A stretch of 64,000 bases of DNA from Chryseobacterium gleum. Its GTDB lineage: Bacteria; Bacteroidota; Bacteroidia; Flavobacteriales; Schleiferiaceae. Below the pieces are notes generated by a model. That model saw only the letters and a list, made by a program, of their open reading frames with translations. It was not told where the DNA came from and searched no databases. The stretch covers positions 1 to 64,000 of the forward strand of contig CAMCXO010000002.1 of the NCBI GenBank assembly GCA_945883565.1, in the 5' to 3' direction. The first letter of the stretch is position 1. Each line of letters opens with the position of its first letter. The position numbers and the translations under genes were made by a program. This document shows, one piece after another, positions 36,647 to 40,704 of the stretch.

Positions 36647-36842
36647 GGGCGCCCCCGCGCGGGGAATAAAAACCATTCAAAACCCAAACACCATCAGAGC
36701 CCCTCGCGGGCCGGGCTTTCCGCTCTAAGTCCTCGCCGCCATTGTCTGAACCATGATTTTCTGGATTTAAGGATGGGCATGATTAATTCAAAAGGCTTTG
36801 GTCAAGGCGGCTGCGGGCTTTCCACTGCAATCCCTGGCGCGA
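36647..36842 (-). repeat. Dispersed modular repeat, copy 3 (central module B)
   Basis: Inverted relative to copies 1 and 2. On the minus strand it reads CGCGCCAGGGATTGCAGTG, AAAGCCCGCAGCCGCC, then a different centre (about 36741-36806) containing AATCATGCCCATCC and GGTTCAGACAAT, then GGCGGCGAGGACTTAGAGCG, AAAGCCCGGCCCGCGAGGGG and GCGGGGGCGCCC. So the arms match copies 1 and 2 while the centre is replaced. The replacement centre is homologous to the 100-bp units at 40256-40654. The 296 bp before it (36351-36646) hold no gene. Confidence 0.88.
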
Positions 36843-36871
36843 ATCTTAACATGGTATAAACCTCAGCATCC

Positions 36872-37219
36872 CTGCACCGTGGTCTAACTTTCCCGCATGG
36901 GCGTCAACCCTTCCCGCTCCGGGGTCAAATACTCCCGCAGAGGCATCAACCCTTCCCGCACCGTGGTCAAACTTTCCCGCATGGGCGTCAACCCTTCCCG
37001 CACCGTGGTCATACACTCCCGGGTGGGCGTCAACCTTTCCCGCACCGTGGTCATACACTCCCGGGTGGGCGTCAACCCTTCCCGCACCGTGGTCAAACTT
37101 TCCCGTATGGGCGTCAACCCTTCCCGCACCGGGGTCTAACTTTCCCGTATGGGCGTCAACCCTTCCCGCACCGGGGTCAAACTTTCCCGTATGGGCGTCA
37201 AACACTCCCGCGCTTATGT
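36872..37219. repeat. 21/42-bp tandem repeat array
   Basis: About 16 units of 21 bp in two alternating types, one with CACCGTGGTCA and the other with ATGGGCGTCAAC, both starting TTCCCGC, giving a 42-bp higher period. On the minus strand the array stands upstream of the CGCGCC left end of repeat copy 3, separated by about 30 bp, the same position the 21-bp array of 1-230 takes next to copy 1. Frames stay open because 21 is a multiple of 3, which yields spurious ORFs on both strands. Confidence 0.93.
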
Positions 37220-37418
37220 CAAACACCGAAGCGAGTGCTTTAACCAATAAGAAAAAAAGAGAACCAAAAGCTAACGGCACTAAAAGCGTTGTTGCTTTCG
37301 AGAATGTGGCCAATATCGTAAGAACGTACCCTTGTCGTCGCGCTAAAGAACAAAAATATAAAATGATCAACAAACCAAAATACAACCCAAATATCCACCA
37401 CCGCAAATCGTCGATTCC

Positions 37419-37446
37419 GTAGGGGCAGACCTGCGTGTCTGCCCTG
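37419..37446. repeat. REP-like palindrome 1
   Basis: GGGCAGAC (37423-37430) pairs with GTCTGCCC (37436-37443) across a 5-base loop, preceded by GTAG. Palindromes of this GTAGGGGC... form often lie in or near RAYT genes, as here. Confidence 0.8.
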
Positions 37447-37480
37447 ATACTAATACGAATAATGACAATACAAACCCGAT

Positions 37481-37510
37481 GTAGGGGCGAACACGTAGGT
37501 TCGCCCCTAC
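37481..37510. repeat. REP-like palindrome 2
   Basis: Perfect 12-bp inverted repeat GTAGGGGCGAAC / GTTCGCCCCTAC with a 6-base centre ACGTAG. It sits directly before the RAYT remnant and reads through it in frame. Confidence 0.9.
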
Positions 37511-37515
37511 GTCGG

Positions 37516-37719
37516 GTGGTGCAATGGTTCAAAACAATGTCCACCAATGAATATATACGGGGTGTAAAAACATTGCGGTGGCAACCGTTTGATGGTAAAT
37601 TATGGCAACGCAATTACCACAAACATATAATTCGTAACGAACAATCGTATCAAACCATATTGGAATACAGAATAAACAATCCTGTAAAATGGGAAGACGA
37701 TAAAATTAATTTCAAATGA
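37516..37719 (+). pseudogene. Truncated REP-associated tyrosine transposase (RAYT), C-terminal part
   Basis: The frame ending at 37719 encodes the C-terminal part of an IS200-like Y1 transposase of the REP-associated class: VVQWFKTMSTNEYIRGVK, then GKLWQRNYHKHIIRNEQSY with the position of the catalytic Tyr, and EYRINNPVKWEDDK near the end. The N-terminal half with the HUH metal motif is absent; upstream sequence is the two palindromes and unrelated DNA. RAYTs move or process REP palindromes, and the flanking inverted repeats fit that family. It cannot be active by itself. Confidence 0.82.
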
Positions 37720-38187
37720 AATTCACGGGAGAAAATTAGAAAAGTGTTTACCGAGCAATAGCCAACATGTTAACCCAATTTTCGCAAAGGGCGCCAATTC
37801 CAAAGCACAACGAGCCATTCTATCTTGTTTCAACAATTCAAGTGTTGTCAATTTTCTATTTCGTGAAACGCTATGGGGAAAAGAGCCTAAAAACCAATTC
37901 CTCTACCAGCTCTTCAGCGACATCCATTCGGGTTCCTTATTTTGAACAATTGGGTTTTCTGATTTTCGCTCCTCCCATCATTTAAGCACCAAAACACAAC
38001 CGTCCATTCCCTTTCCTTTTCTTCCCCATAATAATTCCCATTTAATAACCCCACCTTTCCCTACAAGCATTCCCTTCACACTCCATGTAAAAGCCATAAA
38101 ACCCAATTATGGCTTAAAAAGAATTTTTATTTACGACTTTGTAAGTATTCATATTATGTATAATTTCCCACAACAATTTCTTAATTC
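37720..38187. other. Intergenic region, no gene seen
   Basis: About 470 bp of A/C-rich sequence on the plus strand. A 72-codon open frame at 37767-37985 has no protein-like features. The last 80 bp, ending in an AT-rich block, probably contain the promoter of the gene at 38188. Confidence 0.55.
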
Positions 38188-39075
38188 ATGCTAAAATTCG
38201 ACCATAAAGGCTTCTTTGCCATGTTAGAACGTCAACTGCCTCCGGGCGAAAGTCTCCCAAAATGGCTCGCCACCAACCTCAACCTTTCCGACAGCAACGC
38301 CTACCGTCGAATAAATGGTGAACGCCCATTACAGCTAGACGAACTCCTATTTATCTGCGCCAAAATACCCGAAATAGCCCTCTACGCAGCAGAACTTTTC
38401 CCAAAACACAACCTTAAAGTCATTCAACTTCAACAATTTCACAATCAACAGTCTTTCAAAACCTATCTCACCACCATTCTCAACCTATTTAAAGAAGCCA
38501 AAAAAGCCGAAGACTTTCGCTTTCGCTATGTAGCCCGCGATTTACCGCTGTTCTATTTCCTTTCTAATCCCATTACCCTGCAATTTAAATACAACCAATG
38601 GGTGGGAAACAAACAAGCTGAAACCCTCGACACCGAAACCCTCGCCCTTGCCAATCAACTGTGGCAACTCTACCTCAGCATGCCCTCTGAAGAAATTTGG
38701 TTAAGCACCGCATTTCAAGCCCAATACTTACAACTATTCTACGAACAAGAAACCGATGGTTTACAGTCACACCAGGCCGATATGCTTAAAGTGAGCCTGA
38801 AACAGCTGTATCAAAACAGCAAAAAATGGCGGCTTCAAAACCAAAAAGAAAATGGCGGTCCTCTAAGCGCCTATATCTGCCACAGCCTGCACATGAACAA
38901 CGGTGCCCTTTTGCACAGCCGGGGTAAAAACATTTATTTGGGCAGCATTTCGGGTGTATTCTATTTCCACTCTGCCAATCCACGACTGTTAGACCACTTT
39001 AACCAACAATGGCAAAAACACAAATCGTGGGCTGCCATTCCAATCGAGAACGTCAAAATCGATCTGGAAAGTTAA
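38188..39075 (+). CDS. HTH-like regulatory protein of unknown function
   Basis: A 295-residue cytoplasmic protein. Residues 25-65 look like a helix-turn-helix (WLATNLNLSDSNAYRRINGE, then LQLDELLFICAKI), the pattern of XRE-like regulators in Bacteroidota. The rest (70-290) is mostly helical, with no catalytic motif, and may be a sensing or dimer domain; FRYVARDLPLFYFLSNP is the most distinctive segment. The coding strand is C/A-rich, unlike most plus-strand genes earlier in the window. It is followed by paired palindromes and an unknown helical-protein gene. I recognise no named family. Confidence 0.6.
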   Translation: MLKFDHKGFFAMLERQLPPGESLPKWLATNLNLSDSNAYRRINGERPLQLDELLFICAKIPEIALYAAELFPKHNLKVIQLQQFHNQQSFKTYLTTILNLFKEAKKAEDFRFRYVARDLPLFYFLSNPITLQFKYNQWVGNKQAETLDTETLALANQLWQLYLSMPSEEIWLSTAFQAQYLQLFYEQETDGLQSHQADMLKVSLKQLYQNSKKWRLQNQKENGGPLSAYICHSLHMNNGALLHSRGKNIYLGSISGVFYFHSANPRLLDHFNQQWQKHKSWAAIPIENVKIDLES

Positions 39076-39229
39076 AAAACCACCCCACCTCAGCGGCTTT
39101 AAGCCACTTTTTTAGGAGGGCAAAAGGTGGTTTTAATACAAAAGCAAATAAATTTCATCAAAAAACACCGATTTTGCCAAAATCACGCTCGTACTAAAAC
39201 CCTTTATTGGCGCGGATTTCCTACCGTTT

Positions 39230-39277
39230 TTCGCCATTTTGGCGAAACTTAATTCTTTTTTTCGCCAAAATGGCGAA
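39230..39277. promoter_or_regulatory. Paired palindromes, candidate operator or structured leader
   Basis: TTCGCCATTTTGGCGAA (39230-39246) and its exact reverse complement TTCGCCAAAATGGCGAA (39261-39277) are separated by 14 bp. Each is itself an interrupted palindrome (TTCGCCA/TGGCGAA), so they can fold singly or as one 17-bp stem. They lie 87 bp upstream of the 39364 gene, downstream of an HTH-like gene. The 288-bp gap shows no other feature. Confidence 0.65.
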
Positions 39278-39363
39278 GGTTTTTCCGGCGCGTCTTTGGT
39301 GCTTTGTCACGTCAAAAGGCCGAATGACAAACACGTTTAACTCACAAAAAAAACAAAAGCATC

Positions 39364-40161
39364 ATGAAAGACCGTAGTCGCAAAATCAACAACATGTTCC
39401 AGCATTTAACCCTGCACTTCAACACCAACCGCAGCAGCTGGGAAAACATCAACTACCTAAGTCCCACTGTAAACAGCTTCCTCGAGCAATCGGCTCAGCA
39501 CAATGCCCTGCTGGTACAGAGCCATGCCCTCAACACCAAATTCGCCTATATCCGCGATGAGGAACGCGAGGTTTTCAATCTTAGAATAACCCATTTAGCG
39601 GGCACTTTACAAAACCTATCGGTCGACCTTAACAACGCCGACCTCAACAAAGCGGTAAGCATAAGCAAACGGGCGCTCTGGTCTAACCACTTAAGTGTAA
39701 GCTTTAAAATGGCAGAAAACATAATGCAAGTGGCCCAATTGCACGAAGACGAACTTCAAGCCAATCCCACCACCAAATTAATTTTCGACCAAGCCAAAAC
39801 AGCCTACCAATCTTTCACCACCCGAATTTGGTTGCCCGGATTACGCCGAAACGAACGCACGCTCTGTTTGCAGAACATCAAAAACCTCGAAAAATCTACC
39901 CTCGAGCTTTTGCGCAAACAACTCGATTTTCGCATCATGGTAACCCAAAACGGCTCACCCGATTTCTTCGAGGCTTACAACATCATCCGCAAAATGCCCA
40001 TCTCTAAAAGCTACAGAAAAAAGGTTGAAAACACACAAACCGAGACGATGGAGACTGGCGCAAACCCATCGGTTGCACTCGTCGAAACCCCGGTGGTTGA
40101 GCTTGTCGAAACCCCAACAGCCGAAAACAACAACCCCAACGAATACGCCATAGCTGTTTAA
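39364..40161 (+). CDS. Helical protein of unknown function with REP-modified tail
   Basis: A 265-residue, largely alpha-helical protein without signal peptide. Notable segments: NMFQHLTLHFNTNRSSWENI, FAYIRDEEREVFNLRITHLA, and LRKQLDFRIMVTQNGSPDFF. I recall Bacteroidota proteins of about 200-230 residues with a similar ending but no assigned function; the link is weak. The last 40 residues differ: low-complexity, with VETP repeated (VALVETPVVELVETP), translated from a REP-like DNA repeat at 40070-40115. A strong terminator follows. Confidence 0.65.
   Translation: MKDRSRKINNMFQHLTLHFNTNRSSWENINYLSPTVNSFLEQSAQHNALLVQSHALNTKFAYIRDEEREVFNLRITHLAGTLQNLSVDLNNADLNKAVSISKRALWSNHLSVSFKMAENIMQVAQLHEDELQANPTTKLIFDQAKTAYQSFTTRIWLPGLRRNERTLCLQNIKNLEKSTLELLRKQLDFRIMVTQNGSPDFFEAYNIIRKMPISKSYRKKVENTQTETMETGANPSVALVETPVVELVETPTAENNNPNEYAIAV
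40070..40115. repeat. REP-like repeat inside the 3' end of a gene
   Basis: Two near-copies of GGTTG-x-x-CTxGTCGAAACCCC, at about 40070-40091 and 40095-40115. The second, GGTTGAGCTTGTCGAAAC, is a REP-type sequence known from many genomes. In-frame it adds the repeated VETP to the protein. Confidence 0.7.
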
Positions 40162-40177
40162 CCCACAGCCCAAACAG

Positions 40178-40207
40178 AGCCGGATGCCCAAAGCATCCGG
40201 CTTTTTT
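40178..40207 (+). terminator. Rho-independent terminator
   Basis: AGCCGGATGC (40178-40187) pairs with GCATCCGGCT (40193-40202), loop CCAAA-type, followed by TTTTT. Ends transcription of the 39364 gene. Confidence 0.92.
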
Positions 40208-40255
40208 ATTTTACCAAACCCAAACACCATAACAACTCCCCGGCCCTTTCAGCAA

Positions 40256-40654
40256 GGCGACTGGTATACAGCAGAAATCCCACATCCGCCTCAACCTAAA
40301 GCGTCCAGCTTAATCATGCCCATCCTTAAATCCTATAAATCAAGGTTCAGACAAGGGCGACTGGTATACAGCAGAAATCCCACATCCGCCTCAACCTAAA
40401 GCGTCCAGCTTAATCATGCCCATCCTTTAATCCTATAAATCAAGGTTCAGACAATGGCGGTTGGTATACAGCAGAAATCTCACATCCGCCTCAACCTAAA
40501 GCGTCCAGCTTAATCATGCCCATCCTTCAATCCTATAAATCAAGGTTCAGACAAGGGCGACTGGTATACAGCAGAAATCCCACAGCCGCCTCAACCTAAA
40601 GCGTCCAGCTTATCATTCCCATCCTTCAATCCTATAAATCAAGGTTCAGACAAT
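40256..40654. repeat. Four tandem 100-bp units (central module B)
   Basis: GGCGA/GGCGG followed by CTGGTATACAGCAG-type sequence recurs at 40256, 40356, 40456, 40556 and the last unit ends at 40654, so the period is 100 bp (99 for the final unit). Each unit carries CCACATCCGCC, AGCGTCCAGCTTAATCATGCC and GGTTCAGACAA. The last part matches the central module of repeat copy 3 (36741-36806). Units differ by only a few bases, implying recent amplification. Confidence 0.95.
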
Positions 40655-40704
40655 GGCGGCGTGGGCTTGCAGCGCAAAGCCCGGTCCAAAAGGAGGCGCC
40701 CGCC
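40655..40704 (+). repeat. Dispersed modular repeat, copy 4 (right arm only)
   Basis: GGCGGCGTGGGCTTGCAGCG, then AAAGCCCGGTCC and GGAGGCGCCC, a diverged copy of the right arm of copies 1-3. GGGCTT and AAGCCC can pair into a hairpin. It joins the last 100-bp unit exactly as the right arm joins module B in copy 3. The left arm is missing, its place taken by the array. Confidence 0.75.

Follow-up and report, generated by a model that had tools for sequence, protein, structure and literature searches.

Tandem operators are well known for regulators of the XRE or lambda-repressor type. In iteron-type plasmid origins (pSC101, R6K, pPS10), direct repeats of ~20-22 bp lie upstream of a gene and are accompanied by an inverted-repeat operator at the promoter, and the centromere arrays of plasmid partition, parC/ParR and sopC, have periods of about 11 and 43 bp. 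Among the literature found, the nearest printed repeat is the TAACTGA heptamer, which is directly repeated 5' of genes in Beggiatoaceae and in some Bacteroidetes (PMC4679880).

The locus considered here lies in the window, that is, the whole stretch of 64,000 nucleotides that was analyzed, and comprises two neighboring genes, the second of which, together with its homologues, is labeled FAM.

38188-39075, + strand: HTH-type gene, 295 aa, with an XRE-like N-terminus; candidate binder of the palindromes
39364-40161, + strand: FAM gene, 265 aa; member of an orphan multi-copy family, all-alpha according to a model of a relative

Like the operators of XRE/lambda-type regulators, the locus has 17-bp interrupted palindromes, predicted to lie on one DNA face, and an adjoining HTH gene of the right type; unlike them, its sites lie before the neighbor FAM and not before the HTH gene, and their arms vary among paralogues. 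The likeness to iteron origins consists in direct repeats of ~20-22 bp upstream of the gene (36/49 new loci, see below) and in inverted sites at the putative promoter; in the window the repeat has 16 units and lies about 2 kb upstream of FAM, with the HTH gene between. On the other hand, FAM is present in several copies per genome, the units differ and are often degraded, no Rep match was found, and the relative that was modeled is predicted to be all-alpha. With parC/ParR and sopC the FAM loci have in common phased repeats, 5' of a gene, on which a protein filament could nucleate, whereas the period and the protein are different. Because FAM has no Rep match and is multi-copy, membership in the iteron or partition systems is not claimed. 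The TAACTGA repeats resemble the FAM arrays in being short direct repeats upstream of genes, in some Bacteroidetes, but they have a fixed 7-bp unit and precede many unrelated genes, whereas FAM arrays combine a 21-bp step and varied units with a single family (PMC4679880). No description of FAM or of its arrays was found in the open papers searched, most subscription papers lying outside that search.

The Palindrome Pair Before FAM Genes

The intergenic region between the two genes contains the following elements.

39230-39246, no strand assigned: palindrome 1, TTCGCCATTTTGGCGAA (TTCGCCA-TTT-TGGCGAA), proposed operator site 1
39261-39277, no strand assigned: palindrome 2, TTCGCCAAAATGGCGAA (TTCGCCA-AAA-TGGCGAA), proposed operator site 2
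39285-39363, + strand: FAM leader, conserved; similar in the four own-genome copies (four-copy alignment)

The palindromes are separated by 14 bp (39247-39260), with 31 bp from center to center, and both coordinates and sequence agree with an earlier note on this DNA, which had described two 17-bp interrupted palindromes that are exact reverse complements. In the window's own genome (2.86 Mb), the exact pattern TTCGCCA-N3-TGGCGAA has three sites and the reversed control pattern none; two of the three are the window pair, and the third (C2:175815) lies before a paralogue of the FAM gene and has a partner with two mismatches 14 bp off, at 31 bp between centers. With up to two mismatches the pattern outnumbers the control only slightly (31 vs 21 sites), and at that stringency the motif is not special in its own genome. 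Across six draft genomes (G000, G033-G036, G019) there are nine exact sites, distributed over three of the six, and none of the control; comparison of the site places with the FAM coordinates put all nine directly 5' of a FAM gene, so that in these genomes the exact motif is associated exclusively with FAM. The genome-wide search that the earlier note had proposed thus found the motif not to be scattered. G033 and G036, which belong to the same genus and have no FAM match, have no exact site; in G019 FAM is present, but with other palindrome arms.

A pair was counted as strict when it had arms of 7 with at most one mismatch each, similar arms, centers 27-37 bp apart and a distance of at most 350 bp from the start. 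By this definition 7/17 FAM upstreams of the window's bacterial family carry a pair, as compared with 6/850 shuffles of the same upstreams and 0/97 upstreams of other ORFs of >=150 aa in the fetched stretches. The ten misses include three upstreams shortened by contig ends, to 173, 142 and 15 bp, and two loci in which a pair is visible by eye (L016, L079). The motif is thus also present before homologous genes, so that it passes the refutation test proposed in the earlier note. In two mostly distant sets of FAM genes, which overlap each other, the counts are 0/29 and 1/62 (L150), and an 18th family copy contained in those sets (L101/L199) has no pair.

Short palindromes are frequent in bacterial intergenic DNA, and with two mismatches allowed motif and control are of similar frequency, yet an origin by chance or as a dispersed REP-like repeat is scarcely credible in view of the three exact sites in 2.86 Mb, all at FAM, the nine of nine in six genomes, and the rarity of strict pairs in shuffled upstreams. 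REP palindromes occur in many dispersed copies, which three exact sites in 2.86 Mb are not; the strict-pair test and the six-genome scan together refute this explanation.

The arms differ from locus to locus (TTCGCGA in L065, TTTCCCAA in L069, TGTCTCGA in L076, CTGTCG in L079), those of the window, TTCGCCA, recurring in L066, L073, L074 and, with one site degenerate, L016. Despite these differences, the spacing between centers is 30, 31 or 32 bp in the eight pairs measured, six of which had passed the strict test, where 27-37 bp is allowed, and two of which (L016, L079) were picked by eye. In the own-genome copy on C50, both half-sites are altered together (TTCGCGA-AAA-TCGCGAA vs TTCGCCA-N3-TGGCGAA in the window). 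The pair of the C58 copy, whose FAM protein is 82% identical to that of the window, is poorly palindromic; among the stretches compared between these two copies, the one with the palindromes has diverged furthest (29/48 columns identical), as against 77/82 alignment columns in the leader and 655/771 and 658/873 identical nucleotides in the FAM and HTH genes.

Two like palindromes at a near-constant helical spacing (30-32 bp, eight loci) before homologous genes form the arrangement of a tandem operator. Near-constant spacing together with changing but symmetric arms is to be expected of two DNA sites for dimers and not of a single RNA stem, and the sequence comparison supports the view that the pair behaves like regulatory sites. 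The suggestion that the spacing suits a dimeric regulator has thus gained from the comparison, as it is retained in eight pairs though the arms vary. Taken alone the pair would be an ordinary operator, and arms that differ between paralogues while the spacing stays fixed would amount to a natural experiment in the evolution of operator and regulator specificity.

The Adjacent HTH-Type Gene as Candidate Binder

The reading preferred here, with a probability put somewhat above even, is that the pair is a two-dimer tandem operator in the FAM promoter region, for which the adjacent HTH protein or a paralogue would be the likeliest binder. One protein dimer would dock on each palindrome, and the 31 bp between centers, equal to three helical turns, would bring the two dimers to one side of the DNA helix and so allow them to cooperate. 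We infer from these features that the palindromes are protein sites on DNA, that they are positioned at a promoter, and in which direction they would regulate it.

The binder proposed is the XRE-like HTH protein encoded next to FAM (38188-39075), or else a paralogue, and the chance that the palindromes are bound by the HTH protein is judged a shade under even. A single-sequence model (overall pLDDT 52.5) predicts helices at residues 6-16, 23-30, 35-42, 50-59 and 61-70, with block-mean pLDDT of 83-88 for residues 11-40; this predicted XRE-like five-helix N-terminus would agree with the HTH-like gene that had been noticed upstream of the palindromes. In Pfam the product has only a BetR match, with E 0.043 and below its cut-off, and a search of the PDB by sequence returned no useful match for the product.

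In the four genomes with FAM, an HTH homologue lies <=2.5 kb from 8/18 FAM genes. It is upstream of FAM in three of the four own-genome copies and at a single FAM copy in each of G034 and G035; at the three FAM copies of G019 it is either downstream or no more than 2.3 kb away. HTH relatives are present in 66/88 family genomes, vs 4/88 for FAM, and at four loci (L069, L076, L074 and L016, the last with one site degenerate) the pair is present with no HTH gene in the examined stretch; for these two reasons the HTH protein is disfavored as the sole binder.

Where the arms of two loci differ, so do their HTH proteins at and just after the predicted recognition helix, the region reading NAYRRINGERP in the window (TTCGCCA), GAYRKINGNRG on C58 (TTTGGACA-like) and NVYRRIKGESA on C50 (TTCGCGA). 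In L066, which also has TTCGCCA arms, it reads SAYRKISGERG, with GER common to L066 and the window. The link between arms and residues is weak because positions of the recognition helix differ between these two TTCGCCA loci as well, the two in which the HTH gene is complete, and the correspondence is only suggestive. The HTH neighbor would nonetheless be the best candidate binder, its main rival being the FAM protein itself.

RNA Structure and the Putative Promoter

When the 86-nt palindrome region is treated as RNA, it folds strongly (-29.8 kcal/mol, z = -4.16, 0/200 shuffles as good), and palindrome 2 with the TTTTT that follows it scores as a terminator in the terminator scan of the window. 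Both results would suit hairpins, or one long stem, serving in a leader or read-through mRNA as a terminator, an attenuator or a protein-binding hairpin, but this explanation is improbable: a run of five or more T follows palindrome 2 in only 4/8 loci (the window, L074, L066, L016; not L065, L069, L076, L079), the long stem is exact in the window only, a spacing of 30-32 bp has no obvious RNA rationale, and an Rfam search gave no family at gathering score. An intrinsic terminator or attenuator with a conserved T-run was accordingly rejected across the eight loci, although the window itself fits the consensus. The single 17-bp stem that the earlier note had offered beside two small hairpins did not find support, the exact mirror arrangement being found in 1/8 loci, and the long-stem reading was rejected.

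Flavobacterial promoters carry a -33 box, and under the tandem-operator reading site 2 would touch or overlie the FAM promoter on its -33 side, and binding would thereby control FAM transcription. A TTTG at 39303-39306 within the FAM leader may be part of the -7 box of this putative promoter; compared with the flavobacterial -7 consensus TAnnTTTG (PMC9723704), it lacks the TA at the right distance. Points against the operator are this missing TA, the terminator score of palindrome 2, the poor symmetry of the C58 pair, and the lack of a strict pair in ten of the 17 family upstreams (three of them cut short), in the 18th copy and in nearly all distant FAM genes.

Two further hairpins flank the FAM transcription unit as predicted.

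39092-39113, + strand: hairpin with T-run after the HTH gene, AGCGGCTTTAAGCCACTTTTTT (from the sequence and the palindrome listing)
40176-40204, + strand: terminator-like hairpin after the FAM gene (terminator scan)

The first is a possible terminator that would part the HTH gene from the FAM transcript. Similar hairpins are found 3' of the HTH genes on C58 and C50, and the terminator scan does not have the 39092-39113 hairpin among its + strand entries.

The FAM Family

The window's own genome has four FAM copies. A search in the window's bacterial family gave 17 matches in 4/88 genomes; the profile built from those members matched 5/395 genomes of the order, one of them weakly, and 14/395 genomes of the phylum, own included, some by weak or partial matches. 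A profile of distant members matched 47/294 genomes and 31/151 genera in the class of G642, some of these genomes being counted on weak or short matches alone, with up to nine matches per genome; as the class search scored no more than nine candidates in any genome, these copy numbers are lower bounds. The carriers that could be named (ten loci) are a Stygiobacter MAG and other Ignavibacteria, Bacteroidetes and one Spirochaetes MAG.

Searches in Pfam, NCBIfam, PADLOC and PHROG gave only scattered weak or sub-threshold matches, none common to more than two members, and the PDB contains no convincing relative by sequence. A Rep family is absent from the Pfam matches of the window FAM (E up to 1) and from those of 17 members of A1 and 8 of A3 (E up to 0.1), and Pfam scans of the window FAM and of members yielded no transposase or integrase match. 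For the relative L128, an AlphaFold model built with nine sequences is a long all-helical bundle (mean pLDDT 83.8, pTM 0.51). It has no confident structural relative in the PDB (best E 0.077), and in a second structural search the best matches, at Z 9.3, were generic three-helix and BAR bundles, which according to the tool may reflect no more than a common arrangement of helices. From the model, FAM is a predicted all-alpha orphan family. L132 has a stop within frame and was excluded from the protein alignments.

A phage origin was rejected as far as tested, that is, by pattern-limited scans of viral contigs, in which no FAM relative was confirmed, by PHROGs, where one of 24 members matched a tail-spike model (E 2.5e-5), and by a viral fold library (best E 0.12 for the L128 fold). 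Among plasmids, searched with one FAM member, no relative was confirmed.

Arrays With a 21-bp Step

Two arrays with a 21-bp step are present in the window.

36869-37204, no strand assigned: 21-bp repeat array with 16 units, which alternate between the types TTCCCGCACCGTGGTCAAACT and TTCCCGTATGGGCGTCAACCC
1-232, at the start of contig C2: array of eleven 21-bp units (GGCGGTTGAACGTTTGAAGCC)

The alternation of the two unit types leads Tandem Repeats Finder to report a period of 42 for the former. The latter has no FAM on its window side, and a FAM copy may lie past it, beyond the end of the contig.

Short degenerate tandem repeats also lie upstream of distant FAM genes, and they were counted by lag scans over all lags 12-69, in which a top lag of 20-22, 41-43 or 62-64 defines the 21 series. 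In the first scan, 27/35 usable upstream regions (38 were given, 3 being too short) had a 21-series top lag above all 20 shuffles. L079 and L118 were missed because their top lag lies elsewhere, although they have strong signals at 22 and 42 bp, and no signal was seen for the window, L064, L065, L076, L101 and L107; in L064 and L065 the contig reaches only 122 and 564 bp beyond the 5' end of the HTH gene, so that an array farther out could not show. Seven of nine further upstreams, scanned without a shuffle control, had 21-series lags; of the nine, L127 coincides with L117, L132 has a different repeat with a higher score, L130 shows no such lag and L133 is masked. On new loci the signal exceeded all 30 shuffles in 37/51 upstreams and in 0/18 downstream flanks. 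Since the upstreams of L145, L146 and L199 overlap earlier loci, L145 (positive) and L199 (negative) were dropped, also from the downstream control, L146 having already been skipped for masked bases, which leaves 36/49 upstream and 0/16 downstream; in 5/16 downstream flanks a repeat with some other period is significant. The pairs L127/L117, L145/L135 and L199/L101 are the same places, and L073/L066 are nearly the same sequence. The 13 new loci without signal are L166 and L183-L187, which are all six tested copies of G901, together with L165, L178, L182, L191, L192, L197 and L155, whose repeat is of 27 bp. As seen from the other side, 273 kb of fetched sequence, mostly FAM loci, contain 15 arrays of the 21 series (20-22, 41-44, 62-64), 13 of them upstream of and close to a FAM gene and the other two in the window (36793-37316, 2 kb from FAM, and 1-336, with no FAM known), besides four repeats of other periods. 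The 21-bp arrays thus precede most examined FAM genes.

The unit varies from locus to locus at a constant step, the exceptions being the close relatives L123/L126, L117/L121, L103/L116 and L066/L073, and in many arrays some unit columns are nearly fixed and others freely variable. In a test for two conserved clusters spaced 10-11 bp within the units, adjacent columns proved to be conserved jointly (z 9.1 at lag 1), the minimum fell at lag 7 and lag 10 had no excess (z -0.2); the unit finder used for this presumes a 21-bp step, so its step counts are no evidence for the period, and its weakest entries (e.g., L101, L065, L107) may not be arrays. A conserved coding heptad repeat was rejected, as 18/32 arrays have stops in all six frames and the 14 open ones differ in frame (two of the 32 repeat another locus), and so was a CRISPR array, the 21-bp units being contiguous and without spacers.

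FAM is probably a multi-copy gene of the chromosome, with the expression or action of each copy linked to the 21-bp array upstream of it. A broader proposal, held tentatively and at clearly less than even chances, is that FAM and its locus-specific phased arrays form an undescribed, widespread chromosomal system in which a helical protein assembles on the array. This protein, alone or with a partner, would assemble on sites two helical turns apart on one DNA face; the unit would drift or be replaced in each copy, giving every copy its own address while the 21-bp step is retained; and some copies in the window's family would have gained the paired operator, with arms diverging from copy to copy, perhaps preventing cross-talk of paralogous units. 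It is this larger point, an orphan multi-copy family with arrays of 21-bp step before most of its examined genes, that gives the locus its interest: a helical step conserved without conservation of sequence is unusual and predicts a filament-like or cooperative protein-DNA assembly, and the link to the arrays is the first functional clue for FAM. Together FAM and its arrays may point to a new system of gene control or DNA organization.

The main rival for the palindromes themselves holds that they, like the 21-bp array, are bound by the FAM protein and not by the HTH protein, in an iteron-like, self-regulating circuit where the direct repeats would be the platform and the inverted promoter sites would switch the gene off. 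The motif does track FAM and not HTH (G033 and G036 have HTH relatives but neither FAM nor motif), distant genomes have the FAM-array link with no HTH gene among the neighbors noted, and 21 and 31 bp correspond to two and three helical turns. This explanation is nevertheless rather unlikely, for FAM has no recognized DNA-binding domain, the fold of its relative being a helical bundle with generic matches, the palindrome arms bear no likeness visible on inspection to the array units of the same locus, and distant FAM genes with arrays almost never have the palindrome pair.

Neighborhood of FAM Genes

Ten hand-picked neighbors were scanned, namely nine of the 24 first downstream same-strand ORFs and L077:3040-3804; four are peptidoglycan hydrolases, two integrases and one a KilA-N gene, and three have no match. 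The integrase genes, after FAM in L066 and L152, and the KilA-N gene in L161 count in favor of the view that a mobile element or an insertion-prone island carries FAM and has its ends or recombination sites at the palindromes. FAM is moreover multi-copy, with several copies near contig ends, and a transposase-like remnant lies upstream in the window. Even so this view has a low probability, given that FAM has no transposase or integrase match, that nine of nine exact sites are 5' of a FAM gene, and that no relative was confirmed in viral contigs (pattern-limited) or, for one member, in plasmids.

The stretch 37420-37720 of the window contains inverted repeats (GTAGGGGCGAACACGTAGGTTCGCCCCTAC) together with an ORF, ending in ILEYRINNPVKWEDDKINFK, that looks like what is left of a REP-associated transposase. 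At 40081-40113, the C-terminal coding part of FAM holds, in the coding frame, GTCGAAACCCCGGTGGTTGAGCTTGTCGAAACC, which is similar to a widespread palindromic repeat. After FAM, at 40248-40658, there are about four copies of a 100-bp direct repeat with 94% matches.

In two genera, small peptidoglycan hydrolases (M15 or CHAP) are encoded directly 3' of FAM.

L064 6428-6835: hydrolase ORF 3' of FAM
L065 2569-2976: hydrolase ORF 3' of FAM, a near-identical copy of the L064 one, from whose scan its identity is taken
L067 2109-2768: hydrolase ORF 3' of FAM
L147 2739-3170: hydrolase ORF 3' of FAM
L151 910-1341: hydrolase ORF 3' of FAM

Arrays that look CRISPR-like by appearance are found near FAM genes in two genomes, at L110 157-781 and in the downstream flank of L163.
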